Assembly: GCA_002842495.1 (NCBI GenBank)
Contig: PHDB01000032.1
Span: 1-40,510 of the forward strand
Direction of reading: 5' to 3'
Source of the DNA: Bacteroidetes bacterium HGW-Bacteroidetes-6
Lineage (GTDB): Bacteria > Bacteroidota > Bacteroidia > Bacteroidales > DTU049
DNA: 40,510 nucleotides
Program-made: the position numbers and the translations under genes
The notes under the pieces: generated by a model
What the model saw: the letters and a program-made list of their open reading frames with translations, nothing else
Told to the model about the DNA's origin: nothing
Databases searched by the model: none
Shown: positions 2,137-25,265 of the stretch, piece after piece
Layout of the letters: each line of letters starts with the position of its first letter
Position numbering within the stretch: the stretch's first letter is position 1

Positions 2137-3774
2137 ATGATGTTGTTTTTGCAGATTCTCGGAGCGTTAAGCATTTTTCTTTTTGGGATGAAACTCATGA
2201 GCGAAGCTTTGCAGAAACTTGCAGGAAGCCGCTTGCGCCAAATTATGCATTCTATTACACGCAAAAACAGACGATCGTTTTTATCCGGATTGGGTATAAC
2301 GGCATTACTTCAGAGTTCTTCGGCCACTACAGTGCTTGCCGTCGGGATGGTTCATGCCGGACTGATCAGCCTTCGGGCGTCGTTGCCCATTGTTTTAGGA
2401 GCTAATATTGGGACCACCGTTAAATTTTGGTTTATTTCTTTGCTTGGTTTTTCGGTCGATATCACTATGCTGATTTTGCCCTTGGCTGCATTGTGTTTGC
2501 CTTTGTTTTTTTTGAAAAAAAGAGTTTTTCGTGATGTTCAGCACTTTGCATTTGGGTTTATTCTCTTGTTTACCGGACTCTATTTTATCAAGTCATCAGC
2601 ACCCGAACTTACACAGTCGGAATTTATCCGCGATTTTATCGAACAGATTTCGGGCTATGGTTTTGGGAGTGTATTATTGTTTGTTTTACTTGGATTTACC
2701 ATTACCGGACTTCTACAATCGTCGAGTGCGACGATGACGTTGACTGTTGTGCTGGCTTTTGAAGGTTTGATTGATATACCTTCGGCTGCAGCTATGATTC
2801 TGGGCGAAAATATAGGAACAACAATCACAGCTAATCTGGCGGCTTTAATGACTAACCTGAATGGAAAAAAGGTTGCGCTGTTTCATTTGGCTTTCAATAT
2901 TGCGGGTGTTTCTGTCGCACTTGTATTTTTTAATCCTTTTCTTCGCGGGGTTGAATGGTTGAGCAACCACTGGTTTGATTCCGATAGTTTGCTGGCTGTT
3001 ATTCCATTGACACTTACATTGTTTCATACTGTTTTTAATTTATTTTTTGCAATACTGGTTCTTCCTTTTACAGGGACAATATACCGTGTTTTCATGCAGG
3101 TGTCAGGAAACAAAAAAAATGGCGCTAAACTGAAAACCACCGATAATTCATTGCTTTCAACAGCTGAGATGAATCTTTTGTATGCTTCGGAGCGTAGTAC
3201 TCAGATTCATGAAAAAATGGGCGAATTACTATTGCTCTCCAGGGAGTTGATGACCGAGAAAAAAGACGAAAAGTATTCCAAACTTGTTGCCCATTGCGAA
3301 AAAACCATGACCAAATCGAGAAAGTGGCAATTGCAGCTGTTCGAAACAACCAGTGGTATCATGGCCGACGATATCAGCTTCGAAGGAAACAAACAATTGC
3401 AAAAACTTCATTTGAATCTGCGCTTGTATAGCGATTTAACCACCGTGTTGAATAAGCTGATTTCAATAATTAAACTTAAAAATGAGTCGCGTGTTTGGTT
3501 CAATCAGCAAATGCGTGATGCCTATGAGCAAATACACGAAATATGTGTAAAATCCCTCGATTTGTGTGTATGCAATGCCAATGAATTATCTGTCGCTACA
3601 TTTATGGAAGCCAGGTTTCGGACAGGAGAGTCGATAGTGAAACTTGTCGATGCAATTGAAGGCGATGCCGAAGTCCCTGTTCAGGCAAAATTGTATTTCT
3701 CTCAAATCAGAATGCTACTGGAATTGTTTATTGACATTACACTGAGCGACAAAGAAAATTCAGAGAATAATTGA
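2137..3774 (+). CDS. Na+/phosphate cotransporter (NptA/PNaS family) with PhoU-like C-terminal domain
   Basis: This inner-membrane Na+:phosphate symporter has 545 residues. The two inverted half-repeats of the SLC34/NptA family are clear: LLQSSSATT (about 58-65) with GANIGTT (88-94), and LLQSSSATM (192-200) with GENIGTT (223-229). The QSSSAT loops form the phosphate and sodium site. After the last membrane helix (about 300-330) comes a soluble helical region (about 350-540), the usual place of a PhoU-like domain in bacterial members such as YjbB. Two adjacent ATG codons at 2137 and 2140 are preceded by a purine-rich stretch. Cotranscription with the Rh channel downstream is unlikely, because a 164-base gap with its own promoter separates them. 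Confidence 0.92.
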   Translation: MMLFLQILGALSIFLFGMKLMSEALQKLAGSRLRQIMHSITRKNRRSFLSGLGITALLQSSSATTVLAVGMVHAGLISLRASLPIVLGANIGTTVKFWFISLLGFSVDITMLILPLAALCLPLFFLKKRVFRDVQHFAFGFILLFTGLYFIKSSAPELTQSEFIRDFIEQISGYGFGSVLLFVLLGFTITGLLQSSSATMTLTVVLAFEGLIDIPSAAAMILGENIGTTITANLAALMTNLNGKKVALFHLAFNIAGVSVALVFFNPFLRGVEWLSNHWFDSDSLLAVIPLTLTLFHTVFNLFFAILVLPFTGTIYRVFMQVSGNKKNGAKLKTTDNSLLSTAEMNLLYASERSTQIHEKMGELLLLSRELMTEKKDEKYSKLVAHCEKTMTKSRKWQLQLFETTSGIMADDISFEGNKQLQKLHLNLRLYSDLTTVLNKLISIIKLKNESRVWFNQQMRDAYEQIHEICVKSLDLCVCNANELSVATFMEARFRTGESIVKLVDAIEGDAEVPVQAKLYFSQIRMLLELFIDITLSDKENSENN

Positions 3775-5177: not shown

Positions 5178-5215
5178 TTTTCACCCAATTAGTATAAAAT
5201 TAAACATTGTTTGTA

Positions 5216-6094
5216 ATGGAAGAAAAATCTTTATTTTATGAAGAGTCTGGGCAAACTAATTTGCTCGGGATGGTGTTTGCTTATACAGCCGTAATAGTAT
5301 TTACTTTTATAATGGGGTTTTTATATGAGGTGTTTATTAGAATAATTCCATTTGTTTATATCAATTTTCTGTTGACATTTGGTTATGGAGCTGCTGTTGG
5401 CTTTTTTGTAATGTTAATTTCAAGAATTGTGAAATGCAGAAGCAGAAAAGGGAGGATTTTTATGGTGGTTTTTGCAGGATTAGCAGCAAACTTTTTTCAA
5501 TGGGCTGCTTTTTTTAGTTATATCACAGATATGCAGATTCCTACAATCAAGGAGTATTTTTATCAAATTGAAATGTGTCTGAATCCGGATTATTTATTTG
5601 ATTTTTTAGGTTTTGTTATGAAATATGGTGTTTGGGGTTTCTCTGGAGGTCCTGTAAATGGATTCTTGCTGGCAATAGTATGGGCTGTTGAGGCATTGAT
5701 GATTTGGGGAATTGCAATTGCTGTTGTTTGGAAATCGCCCAAGCGTCCATACTCTGAATTACATGGTAAATGGTATGAACGAAGAATAATTGATCACGAT
5801 TTTGAATTTATTGCTATTGGAAAAAGAATGGTAGAAAAACTGACTGAGAATCCTTTGATTGCAATACAATCACTTCAAAAGGGTGATGCATATCGCCACA
5901 CTCAAATTAGTCTTTTTTATTTGGAAAACGAAAATACACAGTATTTGACCATTGAGAAGGTTTATGTAGATCGCAAAAATTCTGGAAAGAAGAAAACGGA
6001 ATTATTGGTGAATAATTTTGCTATTGATTCAATGACTGCCAGAGAGATTATGAATACCTTCCCCCATCGCAAGGGGCGGATCGATATCTTGTAG
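5216..6094 (+). CDS. Unknown integral membrane protein
   Basis: I do not recognise a family for this 292-residue protein. Four membrane helices can be seen at about 17-38, 46-70, 80-103 and 150-172, followed by a soluble, mixed-charge C-terminal domain of about 120 residues. That domain starts with KSPKRPYSELHGKWYERR and contains ENPLIAIQSLQKGDAYRHTQISLFYL. The arrangement suggests a membrane anchor with a cytosolic tail. The ATG at 5216 is preferred over the upstream in-frame codon at 5207 because it opens the charged N-terminus MEEK. It forms its own unit between two terminators, and its composition is more AT-rich than its neighbours. Confidence 0.75.
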   Translation: MEEKSLFYEESGQTNLLGMVFAYTAVIVFTFIMGFLYEVFIRIIPFVYINFLLTFGYGAAVGFFVMLISRIVKCRSRKGRIFMVVFAGLAANFFQWAAFFSYITDMQIPTIKEYFYQIEMCLNPDYLFDFLGFVMKYGVWGFSGGPVNGFLLAIVWAVEALMIWGIAIAVVWKSPKRPYSELHGKWYERRIIDHDFEFIAIGKRMVEKLTENPLIAIQSLQKGDAYRHTQISLFYLENENTQYLTIEKVYVDRKNSGKKKTELLVNNFAIDSMTAREIMNTFPHRKGRIDIL

Positions 6095-6103
6095 GTGAAG
6101 AAA

Positions 6104-6139
6104 AAAAGGCTATCTGTCGCATGCAACAGATAGCCTTTT
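6104..6139. terminator. Bidirectional terminator between convergent genes
   Basis: A perfect 14-bp stem, AAAAGGCTATCTGT at 6104-6117 with its complement at 6126-6139, encloses an 8-base loop. The A-tract on one side and T-tract on the other let it work on both strands. It serves the membrane protein gene ending at 6094 and the lamin-tail protein gene ending at 6159. Confidence 0.9.
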
Positions 6140-6158: not shown

Positions 6159-9100
6159 TTATTTCACAATCACAAATGGTTTGGTAATCAGAGATCCGTC
6201 GTTCATACGGATACTGATGTAATATAGCCCGTTCGACATCGATGTTGTTTCCAGTGTCATTGAAGCGTTGCCGTTGTGATTAGAATTGCTAATCAGCATG
6301 CCCATGTTATTGAAAACCTCAATGGTGGTTGCGTTTGCAATGCCTTCAATATTGAGGTAATTGCCGGCTGGGTTGGGATACAACGAAATACTTCCTGATT
6401 CTACATTGCTGATGCCGGTGATAATACAGGCTGTTCCCGGATCGGCTAAAACAGCTGTAGTACCATCAATGGTTCCGATAAAATGAGTAGAAACACTCCA
6501 ATTGAGTGGGTCGGTGTTGTCGCTATTCGGATCGCAAAGAGTTAGGGATGGGCCTGTTCCGTTGGCGGCTGTATTCCATGGGGCTGTAGGGAGATAACTT
6601 ACAGAGTCAACTAGCAAGCCTGAAGGACTAACCAATTTTACGAATGTTCCGCTGTTGCTGATTCCTCCGGTTGCACCCTGAATAAAGGATACTCCATAGA
6701 AATTGGTAGCAGCAGTGGCTTTTGGTGCAATAAGTGCATATGAGCCAGCATTGACAACAATCGAAGTTGCAAAAGTGTATGAACTGGTGCCGTACATCAG
6801 TGTGTAATTTTGCAAGTCAACAGAAACAGCATCATTGTTGTAAATTTCAATGAATTCAAGACTGTCTATTCCTGCTTCAGGAGAGTTGTACATCACTTCA
6901 GTGATCACAAGGTTATACACGGTAGTAGATGTATCGAGCAGAATGGGGAAGTTGTAAACTATGCTCATGGTGTTTGCACTGAGATCGGAAATTCCGGTTA
7001 CGGAAAGTGTTGCAGAAACACCACTGACAAGCGGAGTAGAGAGAGTCAGGGTTGCCGTATCGCCATTGGTGTTGAGAACAACATTGCTTAAAGCTCCCAG
7101 ACCTGTATAGTTAGCTGAATTTTCACCCGAAGTAGTTTCGACAGCTTCGTTGAATCGAACTTTCACAGTAGTGAAATCTTCTGCCCAGGCATGTGTTGCA
7201 ATTGGAGCTACAGTATCTGTGGCCGAAGTGCATCCTTCGCCAGGATCGGCATAAACATCGTGTCCATTGACAGTACCAAAGAAGTTGTGACCTAGCGACC
7301 AGTTTCCACCAACATTGTTGTCTAGATTCGGATCGCAAAGCGAAAGACTGTATCCACCTTCGTCGGCTAGTGGCGACCATGGAGCGACATCGTCATAAGT
7401 AATGCTGTCGGCTGTTATTCCGGATGGAGTGCGCAATGTGATTGTTGCACCACTGTTACCCATACCTCCGGTTGAACCCTGAATAAATGAAATACCATAG
7501 AATGGAGTGGCTTTGGCTGCATTCGAAGAAACCAAAACGTATTCGCCCGGAGCAATCGGAGTTGAAACAGGGAACGTGAATGAACTGGCGCCATAAGCAA
7601 GCGTATAGTTAATGAGGTCAACGGTAATAACATCATTGTTGTAAATCTCAATAAATTCAGTAGTATCAGTTCCACTTTCAGCCGGGTTATACATGATCTC
7701 GGTAATAACAAGTGCAGGTGCAGTTGTTGATGTATCAAGCAGCAAAATAAACATCTGTTGCGATGCCATTGGATTGTTTGCTACATCTTCAACGTTTTCA
7801 ATGTAGAGTGTGTCGGAGACACCGCTGATGAGATGTGTGGAAAGAGCAAGAGTAACAGTATCAAGCGTTGTGTTAAGAGTTGCAGTTGCAATTCCAGCAA
7901 GCCCGGTATAATTGGCAAGAGCTTCTGCTGTTGTCTGATCCAAAGCTTCACTAAATTCTACTTTTACCGTTGCTAAATCGACCGGCCATGCCGAAATAGC
8001 TGTCGGAGGTGTTACGTCAAGGATGCCATATTGAACAGGAATACATTGTGAAAATGCCATTGGGTTTCCTGATGTATCGCGAACATCGGCAATGCAAACT
8101 GTATCGGGCATTCCAAAAACAAGAGGAGTACTCAGGTTAAGGGTAACAGTGTCGAGTGTTGTGTTCAGTACGGCAGAACCAATTCCGGCAAGTCCCGTGT
8201 AATGGTTGATGAATTCGGCTGAAGTATCGCGCATAGCTTCGTTGAATTTTACCTGCACGGTGTTGAGGTCAACAGCCCATGCATCTACAACTACAGGTGG
8301 CGTTACATCGCCTAAAGCGATTGTAGTGAAAGTAGAATTGAGTGCTGTGGTTGCATTATCATCAACATCTTCTACAGGTGCAATTTCAACATAATAAAGT
8401 TGACTATTATTCAAATCTGAAGTAGGATCGATTGTAAAAATGGTGTTTGTGGCATCTAGAGTGGCAGTAAAAGGTATATCGGCACCCGAAGCATTGGTTT
8501 CTTTGAGTGTGATAAGACTTCCCGGAGTTGTGATTGGAGAGTTGTCTAAATTTCTCACAGCTTCGCTGAAGGTGATTGTTATATTGGTGTTTACTGCAAC
8601 ATCAATTGCTGCGTCAGCTGGATTAAATACGGCAGTTGGTGTAGCTGGTGCTGTTGGGGCAACAGCCTCTGCCCAGGTGTTTGCAATACGAATACCATCA
8701 ACAACCACCCTTTGTGCAGCATTGTATTGGCGCAGACAAATGCGGCTTATATTTGAATATGTTGCGGTTTCAGTTATTTCCTGATCTGCTACAGCTGGTT
8801 CAGAGGTTGGGAAGCTGCTGAAAACAAATAAGCCTGCAACTTTTGTAACCATATCAACTTTAACCACAGCCAAATAAGTAAAACCAGGAGTGATAGTTAC
8901 ATAGCTAGTGGGAGCGGTAGTTCCAACACCTAAACCAATGCCGTCTCCAGTTGCATTTACATAAAGTCTGTAGAAATATGATGTGCCTAATGTTGTTTGT
9001 CCATAATGCATGAAATAGCCAGCGCTATTTGACGCTTCAGTACTAAACATAAATGCATTGTAAATTGTGGATGTTGTTTGTTCTGTGAAGGTGTTGTTCA

Positions 9101-9362
9101 CATCTTCGCCAGTGTTGACAATTGAAGCAGCATTTCCTACACCAGATCCGATGTAGCCAGCGAAAGTTAGCCCCGGATTTGTTACAGTAATTGGGTTTGT
9201 TCCACCACCGCTGTGAGCTGTCCAGCCATTGTCAGTGAGTAGTGCACCCGTCGCATAATTGAAATTCTCCTCAAACAGGAGTTGTGCTTTTGCACCATTA
9301 TTCAAGCCTATGCTCCATAGCCCAGCCAGAAAAATAGTGACAATCCAAAGTTTTGTTTTCAT
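6159..9362 (-). CDS. Large secreted protein with Ig-like and lamin-tail domains and T9SS sorting signal
   Basis: The 1067-residue protein has a signal peptide (1-26, AKA-Q), then a beta-rich region (about 30-230) that resembles a concanavalin/LamG-like sandwich. A bacterial Ig-like (Big_5/SbsA-type) domain follows (about 242-348). Three related repeats lie at about 355-445, 452-542 and 717-810, each opening with AWAVDL-x-TV-x-V-x-F-x-EA. Two lamin-tail domains (LTD) at about 548-710 and 815-980 start with LVITEIMYN and LVITEVMYN. The end, about 985-1067, is a type A T9SS sorting domain (SISLYPNPAGNYLNIEG ... GLYYISI). It is therefore expected on the cell surface or outside the cell. LTDs often accompany exported nucleases or adhesins, but I see no catalytic domain. 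Function is unknown, probably adhesive or structural. Confidence 0.9.
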   Translation of the reverse strand: MKTKLWIVTIFLAGLWSIGLNNGAKAQLLFEENFNYATGALLTDNGWTAHSGGGTNPITVTNPGLTFAGYIGSGVGNAASIVNTGEDVNNTFTEQTTSTIYNAFMFSTEASNSAGYFMHYGQTTLGTSYFYRLYVNATGDGIGLGVGTTAPTSYVTITPGFTYLAVVKVDMVTKVAGLFVFSSFPTSEPAVADQEITETATYSNISRICLRQYNAAQRVVVDGIRIANTWAEAVAPTAPATPTAVFNPADAAIDVAVNTNITITFSEAVRNLDNSPITTPGSLITLKETNASGADIPFTATLDATNTIFTIDPTSDLNNSQLYYVEIAPVEDVDDNATTALNSTFTTIALGDVTPPVVVDAWAVDLNTVQVKFNEAMRDTSAEFINHYTGLAGIGSAVLNTTLDTVTLNLSTPLVFGMPDTVCIADVRDTSGNPMAFSQCIPVQYGILDVTPPTAISAWPVDLATVKVEFSEALDQTTAEALANYTGLAGIATATLNTTLDTVTLALSTHLISGVSDTLYIENVEDVANNPMASQQMFILLLDTSTTAPALVITEIMYNPAESGTDTTEFIEIYNNDVITVDLINYTLAYGASSFTFPVSTPIAPGEYVLVSSNAAKATPFYGISFIQGSTGGMGNSGATITLRTPSGITADSITYDDVAPWSPLADEGGYSLSLCDPNLDNNVGGNWSLGHNFFGTVNGHDVYADPGEGCTSATDTVAPIATHAWAEDFTTVKVRFNEAVETTSGENSANYTGLGALSNVVLNTNGDTATLTLSTPLVSGVSATLSVTGISDLSANTMSIVYNFPILLDTSTTVYNLVITEVMYNSPEAGIDSLEFIEIYNNDAVSVDLQNYTLMYGTSSYTFATSIVVNAGSYALIAPKATAATNFYGVSFIQGATGGISNSGTFVKLVSPSGLLVDSVSYLPTAPWNTAANGTGPSLTLCDPNSDNTDPLNWSVSTHFIGTIDGTTAVLADPGTACIITGISNVESGSISLYPNPAGNYLNIEGIANATTIEVFNNMGMLISNSNHNGNASMTLETTSMSNGLYYISIRMNDGSLITKPFVIVK

Positions 9363-21499: not shown

Positions 21500-23392
21500 T
21501 TAGTCTTCCGCCAAAGCAATCAGCACATCTTCTTCGCTGAATATTACTTTTGCCGATTTTTTAGGATTGACAACAATGCCATAGTTTGCATCAGGATCGT
21601 TCGATTTGCTCATGATTCTGTAGCCCATGGCAACCTGATCGAAACCGGAAGCAATGGCGGTAAGCTGATAGAAGTCGACTGCAACGCCTGGTTTTACATA
21701 ATTCGTGACAGGCTTGAAATAAATTTCTGAACCGTCTGCATCAAGCAAATCTTCAATTACCGGTTTCAAATGCTTGTTTTCACTAATCATGGTTATAAGT
21801 AAACTAACCAGCTTTTCGCTCACAATAAAATCGTTTTTGCGACTAATACGAGCCAAATCGCTGTTTTTCGAATCGAGCATTTCACTCACAATATTTGTGT
21901 TGAAACCCTTTTTACGAACAATGTCGCGAACATGGAGCAGCGAAACCAATGTGTTGGCATCGGCTTGCTGAATATTGCGGTTGGGTTCGGAAAGAATGAT
22001 AACATAGTCGATTTCTGAAAAATCAATGCTGTCGAGATATTGCCGCGATGTGATATTACCGGTTGTGCGTGAAATGGATATTTTTTCATCTTTCAGATCG
22101 TCGAGCAAATGGAATAAATCTTCTTGAACAACAATTTCCACTTTCGACCCTTCTGGGAAATAATTGCCGAATTCGCGTGCAATAATCTCAATTTTGGGAT
22201 TATATCCCAGAATGAGTGTTCTGACAGGCTTCCGATTGTCGTCGTATTCGAGTTCCGACTTCACGTTTTCAAGTCCCGAAGCAGTTCCAGCACCATTAGT
22301 GACAACCGTATCGTCGTCTTCCGAAATGGCAATTATTTTGTCGTTGGGACCAATCACCTGATCCATAGGTGGATTAAGCTTCGATTCCAGGTTTTCGAAT
22401 TGAATTCCAATAAGAGTGCTGTCTTCAAACATCATTTGAGCTTCGGCAAATGTTTTCCCTTTCAATTTGTCAATTTCTGAAAAGTAAATTTCATCTCCGT
22501 CGAATTTCAAAAGGTCTTCAATTACCACACTGAGTCCGGGCTGATGAACTACCTGAACAGTTAGTCGCGAAAGAACTTCAGTTAGCTGCAAAACTGCAAT
22601 TTCGTTGGGGCCAATCATATCGAGGACTTCCATAGTTTTGTCTTCTCTTATTTCAGCAACAATATGGAAGGGCTCTTCGCGACGATTTGGGTTGTTGACC
22701 AAAGCCAATGCAACTTTGATGATAAACAAATCGTGCATCTCGTCGTTTTCGGGTGGGAGAATGATGATGGAACGAGCACTATTGAAACCAACCATATCAA
22801 GGTCGTTGCTTTCGAGTGGGTCGCCAGACCGGCAAATCACTTTTGTGTTTTTAAGATCGGAAACCTGACCTTTGATCTCTTCTTCCATGGCTGATTTTTC
22901 CATGTCGGACAGAATAACAATTCGTGGCTTTTTCTGATTTTCGTTGGCAATAGCCAATTCGCTGAGAATGGTAAAGACTTTGGGTGACCAACCAAGAATG
23001 AGTGTGTGCCCTTCTTCTAAAACTTTCGACCTGCCTTTGCGCAATTCATCGAGCTTTTGGTCGAAACCTGCTGAAATAATACCAATAAGAGCCGATACTA
23101 TGAAAATACCACCAATGGTAACAACAATCATCACTATACGAAATCCCCAACCGTAATCGCCGCCGACTGTTCCGGGGTCGATTGCCCGCATCATCGACTG
23201 CCATAAAGCTTCGGGGAACGACATGCTTTCGGTATCGACCGGAAGAATGGAAAATGCAGTAACTACAATACTGGCAATGAGTATGAGTAAGAATGTAATG
23301 GCTGCAAGCCAAACTATCACCGCCAACGGACCTTTGGCCATCATGTTGTCGAAGCGATATTTCATTTTTTGTTGAAAAGTGACGTTTTTCAT
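21500..23392 (-). CDS. CASTOR/POLLUX-like ion channel with tandem RCK/TrkA-type domains
   Basis: The 630-residue membrane protein has two helices (about 23-48 and 84-108) flanking a pore-loop region (about 60-80, EALWQSMMRAIDPGTVGGDYGWGF). A large cytosolic part follows with two nucleotide-binding RCK/TrkA-N-like units: the first opens with HTLILGWSPKVFTILSEL (about 129) and the second with RTLILGYNPKIEIIAREF (about 375). This is the plan of the CASTOR/POLLUX family, plant nuclear-envelope Ca2+/K+ channels with bacterial homologues. A cation channel gated by a ligand on the RCK domains is inferred; ion selectivity cannot be read. The ATG at 23392 is preferred over an upstream start, which would place the box TATATTTG inside the gene. 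Confidence 0.82.
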   Translation of the reverse strand: MKNVTFQQKMKYRFDNMMAKGPLAVIVWLAAITFLLILIASIVVTAFSILPVDTESMSFPEALWQSMMRAIDPGTVGGDYGWGFRIVMIVVTIGGIFIVSALIGIISAGFDQKLDELRKGRSKVLEEGHTLILGWSPKVFTILSELAIANENQKKPRIVILSDMEKSAMEEEIKGQVSDLKNTKVICRSGDPLESNDLDMVGFNSARSIIILPPENDEMHDLFIIKVALALVNNPNRREEPFHIVAEIREDKTMEVLDMIGPNEIAVLQLTEVLSRLTVQVVHQPGLSVVIEDLLKFDGDEIYFSEIDKLKGKTFAEAQMMFEDSTLIGIQFENLESKLNPPMDQVIGPNDKIIAISEDDDTVVTNGAGTASGLENVKSELEYDDNRKPVRTLILGYNPKIEIIAREFGNYFPEGSKVEIVVQEDLFHLLDDLKDEKISISRTTGNITSRQYLDSIDFSEIDYVIILSEPNRNIQQADANTLVSLLHVRDIVRKKGFNTNIVSEMLDSKNSDLARISRKNDFIVSEKLVSLLITMISENKHLKPVIEDLLDADGSEIYFKPVTNYVKPGVAVDFYQLTAIASGFDQVAMGYRIMSKSNDPDANYGIVVNPKKSAKVIFSEEDVLIALAED

Positions 23393-23449
23393 TGTTTCAG
23401 TGTAGATTTCGAATAAAAAAGTGGCTTCTTGCAAATTGAAGCGTGACGA

Positions 23450-23457
23450 CAAATATA
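23450..23457 (-). promoter_or_regulatory. -7 box of the CASTOR/POLLUX-like gene
   Basis: TATATTTG on the minus strand (CAAATATA on the plus strand) lies 57 bases before the ATG at 23392. Confidence 0.45.
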
Positions 23458-23545
23458 ACAATATCTGAATTTGCAGAAGGAGAAATGTCATTCTTTGGCC
23501 AAAAATGAAAGCCCAGCTAAATGCTTATTGCTTTAGACTATGAGA

Positions 23546-23815
23546 CTGTCTAAATTCTTAAGTTTGTGCGGATCACAAAGCTCCCGAAGAAGAGCTCAAA
23601 GAGCACAAAGGATTCAATAAAATAAAAGCCGTTCACATTTGTTGTTTTCTGAAATTCTCATACTTCAATGAGAATTTCAGAAAACAACAAATGACCAATC
23701 ACAACATTGTTGTGATTGCACTTGACGGCTTTTATCCATAGAAACACTTTTGCGTTGTGTTCTTAGAGCCTTCTTTGCGCTCTTCGTGCAAATAAGCAGA
23801 ATGATTTTTAGGCAG
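23546..23815. mobile_element. 270-bp MITE-like element with inverted-repeat ends and a perfect three-way-junction core
   Basis: The ends CTGTCTAAA (23546) and TTTAGGCAG (to 23815) are inverted with one mismatch. Further matching blocks follow inward: GTTTGTGCG with CGTGCAAAT, and GCTCAAAGAGCACAA with TTGTGTTCTTAGAGC. The core has three perfect stems: 23622-23632 with 23725-23735 (11 bp), enclosing 23636-23661 with 23668-23693 (26 bp, loop ACTTCA) and 23696-23705 with 23709-23718 (10 bp, loop ATT). No protein is encoded. It fills most of the gap between rlmD and the channel gene. I call it MITE-like from structure only; no target-site duplication is obvious. A structured RNA or strong terminator for rlmD is the alternative. 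Confidence 0.6.
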
Positions 23816-23858
23816 CTTCTAAATAACAATGAGAATTGTGATTTGTTCGGAAGTCTTT

Positions 23859-25265
23859 TTAAATACGCTTTAAAAGTACAATATTCTCAACATGAAAAGT
23901 CTGCGGAAACATGTCGAATGGCTGGATCTCCACAACTTGATATTTTTCTTTCAGTAATGCAATATCCCGGGCTTGCGTTGCCGGATTACAGCTGACATAA
24001 ATCAATTTTTCCGGCTCTGTATTTAAAATCTGTTGAATGACTTCAGGGTGCATGCCCGAACGTGGAGGGTCTGACACTATAATATCGGGTCGACCATTCT
24101 GCGCAAAAAAAGTGTCATTCAAAGTTTTGGCAATGTCGCCACAGTAAAAAACAGCATTCTCTATTTGATTGCCAACAGCATTTTCTTTGGCATTCGCAAT
24201 TGCTTGAGGAACATATTCAATGCCTACAACTTTTCCGGCTGTTGGAGCCAGAAACAAAGCAATGGTTCCGGTACCGGTGTACAAATCGTAAACGGTTTCG
24301 TTGCCTTGTAAATCGGCCATGCGCCGTACAGTCCTGTACATCTCAAGTGCCTGCGGAACATTCACCTGATAAAACGACAACGGACTCACGCTGAATTGCA
24401 AATGTTCCATGCTTTCCATGAAATGATCGGGCCCGGCAAAAACTTCGTACTCCAGATTGTCCATCGAGTCGTTGTGCTTGGTGTTGATGATGTAAATCCA
24501 CGAAGTTACGTCGGGCAACTTTTGCTGCAAAGCTCCCATGTATTGGCTGATTAACTCCGGGTTTTCGTATCCAAAAACCAACGTAACCATCCACTTGCCG
24601 GCAGAGCTGTTTCGTGTCATTAAATTGCGCAAAAATCCGCTGTGGTCGTGACGGTTGTAAAATTCCAGATTTTGTTCTCTGGCAACCGCAAGTGCCGTGT
24701 TCCTGATTTCGTTTATATAATCGCCTTGCAAATAGCAGGTTTCGACGCTGAATATTTTGTCGAACCGTCCGGGTAAATGAAATCCGAGACCTCTGTAATC
24801 GGTGTCTTCGGTTTTTTGTTCATTATCGGGAAGCCAGCGACGATCGGTGAACGAAAACTCAAGCTTGTTGCGATAGTGAAGCTGCGCAGGCGATGGTTTA
24901 ATTGCATTTATTTTGTCAATCTCAACTCCGCCAATACGTTCCAGATTGTCCGAAACCTGTTTTTGCTTCATGCTCAATTGTGCATCGTAGCTCATATGTT
25001 GCCATTTGCAACCACCACAAAGTGTAAAATGCTTGCAAGTGGGTTCAACACGCGACTCTCCCTTTTGATGAAGTTCGCGGACAAATCCCTCTGAGTATCT
25101 TTTCTTGCTGCGAACCAACATCACATCGGCAATATCGCCGGGAACGGTGAATGGAACAAAAACAACTTTTCCTTCATGTCGGCCAATGCAAACTCCTTCG
25201 GCTGCAGTTTCAACTATTTCGAGTTTTTCGATGAGGGTTCCGTAAACTTTTCGTGATGAGGACAT
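23859..25265 (-). CDS. rlmD: 23S rRNA (uracil-5-)-methyltransferase, RlmD/RumA type
   Basis: This SAM-dependent enzyme methylates C5 of a uridine in 23S rRNA (U1939 in E. coli). An N-terminal TRAM domain (about 8-66) is followed by the [4Fe-4S] cysteines CKHFTLCGGC (C77, C83, C86) with the fourth at C177. The Rossmann methyltransferase has VYDLYTGTGTIALFLA, SDPPRSGMHP and the catalytic cysteine in YVSCNPATQARD (C426). At 468 residues it is a normal length. The RlmD/RlmCD/TrmA-like distinction rests on similarity only. It starts 12 bases after cdaA on the same strand and is probably cotranscribed with it. Confidence 0.92.
   Translation of the reverse strand: MSSSRKVYGTLIEKLEIVETAAEGVCIGRHEGKVVFVPFTVPGDIADVMLVRSKKRYSEGFVRELHQKGESRVEPTCKHFTLCGGCKWQHMSYDAQLSMKQKQVSDNLERIGGVEIDKINAIKPSPAQLHYRNKLEFSFTDRRWLPDNEQKTEDTDYRGLGFHLPGRFDKIFSVETCYLQGDYINEIRNTALAVAREQNLEFYNRHDHSGFLRNLMTRNSSAGKWMVTLVFGYENPELISQYMGALQQKLPDVTSWIYIINTKHNDSMDNLEYEVFAGPDHFMESMEHLQFSVSPLSFYQVNVPQALEMYRTVRRMADLQGNETVYDLYTGTGTIALFLAPTAGKVVGIEYVPQAIANAKENAVGNQIENAVFYCGDIAKTLNDTFFAQNGRPDIIVSDPPRSGMHPEVIQQILNTEPEKLIYVSCNPATQARDIALLKEKYQVVEIQPFDMFPQTFHVENIVLLKRI

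Follow-up and report, generated by a model that had tools for sequence, protein, structure and literature searches.

Porphyromonas gingivalis, like the organism studied here a member of the Bacteroidales, carries MITEs that include MITE464/PgRS and BrickBuilt. These elements lack a transposase, have the ends of an IS5-family insertion sequence (ISPg4 belongs to that family) and hold unrelated filler between shared ends (PMC4596501), all of which also holds, on our reading, for the element described below. The same paper gives the ends of MITE464/PgRS and ISPg4 as GAGACTGTTGCA, which diverge from those of our element after GAGACTGT. It describes their filler as tandem direct repeats, whereas ours consists of palindromes, and it assigns to BrickBuilt duplications of unequal length, whereas elements of the present type have TNA (PMC4596501).

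Other known systems resemble the element in its ends or in its fold. ISLrh of Lacticaseibacillus rhamnosus, an IS5-family element assigned to the IS1031 group, carries GAACCTGTCTAGTATCT at its ends; members of that group are described as targeting TNA and making 3-bp repeats. The likeness to our element lies in the GA..CTGTCTA ends, the TNA target and the 3-bp repeat, but ISLrh is an autonomous insertion sequence of 857 bp with two reading frames (PMC12016507). A complete insertion sequence of 899 bp on a Bacteroides fragilis plasmid (CP103159.1, L128:1384-2282) encodes a transposase of 257 aa that matches DUF4096 and DDE_Tnp_1. Its ends, GAAACTGTTTTGAATT / GAAGCTGTTTTGATTT, have the GARRCTGTYT form shared with our element, and its TTA/TTA flanks represent a similar duplication; it differs in being autonomous and in having TGTTTTGA where our element has TGTCTAAA. 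QMITE2 of Coxiella burnetii is likewise short, with a transcript predicted to fold at about -113, but is described with 7-9 bp duplications and other repeats (PMC10969869). The term 'three-way junction' was absent from the literature on MITEs, transposase and palindromes, among the matches listed.

The window analyzed here is a stretch of 40,510 nucleotides, contig PHDB01000032.1 of Bacteroidetes bacterium HGW-Bacteroidetes-6. We read a 278-base intergenic part of it, with a probability of about 0.85, as a non-autonomous MITE of IS5 type whose transposase is supplied from elsewhere and whose three-way junction is palindromic filler. The element adds a new, well-bounded member to a type of mobile DNA already known, and it has two unusual features: a long, perfect palindromic filler, and a MITE-in-MITE arrangement at its second copy, on contig 138. 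Its parts are listed in Table 1. An earlier note had set the borders at 23546-23815; the inverted ends it saw are present, but they extend four bases further on each side. The list of open reading frames shows none of at least 80 aa inside 23542-23819.

Table 1. Coordinates of the element, its parts and its neighbors in the window.
Feature	Position	Strand	Basis
MITE, whole element, 278 bp	23542..23819		copy with matching ends at contig 138:29718-29899
Left terminal inverted repeat, GAGACTGTCTAAATTC	23542..23557	+	sequence
Right terminal inverted repeat, GAAGCTGCCTAAAAAT, read on the minus strand	23804..23819	-	sequence
Left 3-bp flank, TAT (TNA expected; inexact)	23539..23541
Right 3-bp flank, TAA	23820..23822
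Left subterminal arm, CACAAAG-type, pairing imperfectly with the right arm	23558..23620
Right subterminal arm	23737..23803		folding
Left strand of junction stem 1 (11 bp), pairing with 23725-23735	23622..23632
Junction stem 1, right strand	23725..23735
Junction stem 2, perfect hairpin of 26 bp with the 6-nt loop ACTTCA; arms 23636-23661/23668-23693	23636..23693
Junction stem 3, 10-bp hairpin, 3-nt loop ATT; arms 23696-23705/23709-23718	23696..23718
90 bp missing from the contig 138 copy	23648..23737		two-copy alignment
rlmD-like uracil methyltransferase gene, upstream neighbor	23859..25265	-	Pfam tRNA_U5-meth_tr and TRAM
Castor/Pollux-type ion channel gene, downstream neighbor	21500..23393	-	profile match; orthologs

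The earlier note had suggested a non-autonomous transposable element and had named the lack of any other copy, together with a lack of compensatory changes in the stems of orthologous loci, as grounds for rejecting it. A search of the organism's own assembly (4.04 Mb in 140 contigs, 93.6% complete, 5.24% contaminated) with a 361-bp query gave a single place apart from the window itself and its self-complement, at contig 138:29718-29904. There the match consists of two abutting pieces with the middle of the query left out, the arms being 90% and 95% identical (E 2.6e-34 and 1.7e-32). Aligned end to end, the copies measure 278 bp (window) and 182 bp (contig 138), with 174 of 182 aligned bases identical and gaps of 5, 90 and 1 bp; the counterpart of the right terminal repeat reads GAAGCTGTCTGAAAAT. 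On either side of the contig 138 copy stands TCA, an exact target duplication, so that a second copy and a duplication both stand behind the reading as an element. The flanks of the window copy, TAT/TAA, do not match exactly and count against that reading. Two copies is also a low number for a MITE. Because the assembly is 5.24% contaminated, the two contigs, 124 and 138, may come from different organisms.

The contig 138 copy lies nested in an outer element, now 522 bp long, that has ends of the same kind, GAAACTGTCTAAAATTC / GTAACTGTCTAAATTT, and exact TTA/TTA flanks. Contig 138 thus holds one miniature element within another, each with its own 3-bp TNA duplication. The outer element also contains (L006:5229-5296) a member of another repeat family of this genome, a 42-66 bp repeat that runs from GAGCTCATGAATACAA to TATGAATAAA; the family occurs at eight places in the genome (L045-L052), six of which lie no more than about 250 bp from where a contig ends.

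The 90-bp gap starts inside stem 2 and stops just beyond stem 1. The contig 138 copy retains 27 unpaired bases of the core side, AATAAAAGCCGGTCACATTTGTTGTTT, including 10 of the 11 in stem 1's left strand and 12 of the 26 in stem 2, none with a partner. Some or all of the core was therefore already joined to the arms when the copies diverged, which weakens the proposal of the earlier note that arms and core have a composite origin. Since AATAAAAGCCGGTCACATTTGTTGTTT is kept without its partner, the gap is most simply a deletion in the contig 138 copy, of a type to be expected of long palindromes. The reverse course, in which contig 138 preserves the older state and the window copy alone gained the core, for instance through template switching at a palindrome, is unlikely. 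In its favor, both copies keep bases whose reverse complement makes up much of the missing 90 bp, and none of the other genomes searched contained the core; but three nested stems would require several steps against a single deletion, and the partnerless stem remnants on contig 138 are what a deletion would leave.

Neither a further copy of the element nor any of its core beyond short fragments was found in the other 58 of 59 relatives, 392 of 393 genomes of the order, or 394 of 395 genomes of the phylum; these sets partly overlap, and the order and phylum searches scored the best two first-look candidates per genome. A match to the end of the core in G034 (35 bp, E 1.3e-4) falls at the 3' end of a reading frame, probably quinolinate synthase, nadA, and was judged a chance match, as were other short matches from the phylum search (G584, G624, G655). 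Short matches to the arms in G138, G006 and G514 show just that inverted repeats of CACAAAG type recur in Bacteroidota. Imperfect CACAAAG / CTTTGTG inverted repeats like the subterminal arms were seen in three other Bacteroidota genomes (L055, L056, L129). A distant-mode search of plasmids gave no match. Viral contigs contained no exact 26-bp stem, no inner 12-bp hairpin of stem 2 with loops of 3-9, and no relative of the transposase fragment of G053 described below. The inner hairpin recurs in one of the 394 other phylum genomes, G687, with exact arms and a different loop (L130:1501-1530; TGAAATTCTCAT, 6 nt, ATGAGAATTTCA, equal to the inner part of stem 2); with at most this single recurrence, no hairpin family around stem 2 was seen.

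The bare end sequence is not enriched. It occurs at 22 places in the organism's own genome (up to 3 mismatches) vs 19 for a reversed control, and a scan of the order with GARRCTGTCTAAAWT matched 30 of 393 genomes vs 48 (a hand count) for the control. Because the ends are no commoner than the control, the case rests on how they pair and on their flanks rather than on counts. Second ends were sought in 30 loci from the order scan (L057-L086). Of the 30 matching genomes, 23 matched once, while G053, from the window's order, had four places, and TNA precedes the end in all four. Scanning the contigs of named genomes for TNA plus the end gave four loci (L092-L095); L093 and L095 are two-ended elements, and L092 and L094 were set aside as lying within long frames with no second end. 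Two of the source genomes are Sinomicrobium weinanense (G400) and a Chitinophagaceae MAG (G402). The first 15 bases of the left terminal repeat occur exactly, as element ends, in G053, G400 and G402. For the right terminal repeat the Chitinophagaceae counterpart reads GAAGCTGTTTAAAAAT; the right end of a 255-bp element there, ATCATTTTTAAACAGCTTC, differs from that of the window, ATGATTTTTAGGCAGCTTC, at 3 of 19 bases.

In S. weinanense, 20 ends occur at no more than 1 mismatch vs 1 for the reversed control. From 29 loci scanned in this genome and the Chitinophagaceae MAG, taking the best pair per locus at 100-300 bp apart and with no more than 3 mismatches in all, 14 distinct end pairs emerged, 134-262 bp apart; the remaining loci were partnerless under this rule. 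No frame in any of the 14 exceeds 63 codons. Ten have identical 3-bp flanks, all TNA. The other four are flanked by ACA/TTA, TGA/TTA, TAA/TGT and TTA/TAA, the last two with a poor second end. Counting the organism's own genome (2 of 3), flanks are identical in 12 of 17 elements, and all 12 are TNA.

Two other arrangements of ends were noted. At L068:1501-1527 (G157), two GAGGCTGTCTA ends stand head to head within 27 bp and with no interior; they may be fused ends like those of an insertion sequence, or a terminator. At L091 (G265), spaced copies of a repeat occur at 1034-1231 and 1921-2118 (198 bp each) and at 3066-3165 (about 100 bp), two of the three bearing a GAGGCTGTCTAAAAT end.

Ends of this kind also lie beside transposase sequence. 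In G053, one of the four adjoins the final 86 codons of a transposase with matches to both DDE_Tnp_1_2 and DDE_Tnp_1, each above its cut-off. In G005, from the window's own family, a transposase fragment is 48% identical to that of G053, with TAA and GAAGCTGTTTTGAATTT just past its end. The shared ends, the TNA flanks and the IS5-type transposase beside such ends make the window element look like the substrate of an IS1031-group transposase, as far as sequence can tell. An IS5-type transposase would then act on it in trans. The organism's own assembly, 94% complete, contains no DDE_Tnp_1 match and no relative of the G053 fragment, which tells against this reading; many MITEs, though not all, have a matching insertion sequence in their own genome. 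Repeated copies of insertion sequences are easily lost from fragmented assemblies, and an active insertion sequence with GARRCTGTCTAAA ends may have been lost from this one, or be missing in it.

The fold that first drew attention to the locus is real. Three perfect stems of 11, 26 and 10 bp, nested as a three-way junction, were verified base by base across 23622-23735, and the imperfect inverted repeat claimed for the flanks contributes 58 of the 106 pairs in the RNA fold of the 278 bp. As DNA, 23540-23825 folds at -69.4 kcal/mol vs a mean of -29.1 (sd 3.5) for 200 dinucleotide shuffles, none of which did as well (z -11.5); the RNA fold reaches -113.1 kcal/mol (z -11.7 vs shuffles). The longest perfect arm in 20 shuffles of the whole window was 11, so that the 26 bp here lie well beyond what chance gives in this window. 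By the same DNA measure the core-less contig 138 copy folds weakly (z -1.86, 7 of 200 shuffles as good), and a Sinomicrobium element of the same kind gave z -3.48. Only two perfect hairpins with arms of at least 12 bp and loops of 3-10 occur in the window, stem 2 and 6104-6139. The latter, with 14 bp and an 8-nt loop, lies between the converging frames 5207-6094 (+) and 6159-9362 (-) and is likely a terminator.

Comparison of the two copies, just two sequences in which 48 pairs, including the entire junction core, fall on gaps, left 58 comparable pairs: 53 unchanged, 2 kept through one-sided change, 3 broken and none compensatory. The earlier idea of a conserved folded recombination substrate draws no support from this comparison. 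With the core found nowhere else that was searched, no compensatory change and three pairs broken, the junction is probably a filler of palindromes without a job of its own, and the core would have no selected role.

Alternatively, selection may have kept the core as a structured RNA, or as an attenuator, in the gap that separates the rlmD-like gene from the Castor-like gene, with transposon ends only as its vehicle. In favor of this, both neighbors lie on the minus strand, the RNA fold is very stable, and in 23300-24000 the sole terminator-like match (shuffle mean 0.5) is stem 3, on the minus strand, with no promoter-like match (shuffle mean 1.7). The name rlmD is that of the earlier note, the Pfam evidence being tRNA_U5-meth_tr and TRAM; the Castor/Pollux-type start at 23393 was placed by eye from orthologs, the longest frame starting at 23491. 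If the two genes share a transcript, the element would be transcribed as a long hairpin, and a mild read-through effect of stem 3 on its neighbors is possible, judging from the sequence. The alternative is nevertheless quite improbable. The contig 138 copy lacks the core and folds weakly, no paired change compensates another, and stable folding is said of MITE transcripts in general (PMC10969869). Orthologous gaps carry no such sequence: in three loci compared by eye among those matched by the rlmD-like protein, the two genes are adjacent across short gaps without the element in G002 and G005, and in G003 a different gene follows the rlmD-like gene. Nor does an RNA family emerge, although the earlier note had raised a large structured RNA: Rfam at E up to 1 gave 20 matches, none reaching its gathering score. 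Eighteen are miRNA hairpins, taken as matches to any hairpin, and a 23S-methyl motif (31.7 bits vs 50 for gathering) lies on the plus strand, whereas the rlmD-like gene is on the other.

We give little credence to a still more specialized role, in which the three-way-junction core, as DNA, is a folded passenger that forms on single strands, for example at a replication fork, and pairs the ends for the transposase; were this true, loss of the core would be what froze the contig 138 copy. That the whole is a chance or replication-made inverted repeat and no transposable element is scarcely credible: the inexact window flanks and a tally of only two copies would fit, but the copy on contig 138, which shares the ends, has exact TNA flanks and sits within an element of similar type, contradicts it, as do elements of other genera delimited by the same ends.

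As an IS5-type MITE, the locus settles a striking fold as mobile DNA. The nested elements of contig 138, together with a palindrome that was likely lost, provide a small worked example of nesting and decay. The GAGACTGTCTAAA ends and their TNA duplications are tied to IS5/IS1031-type transposases in several Bacteroidota and offer a handle for finding further elements.
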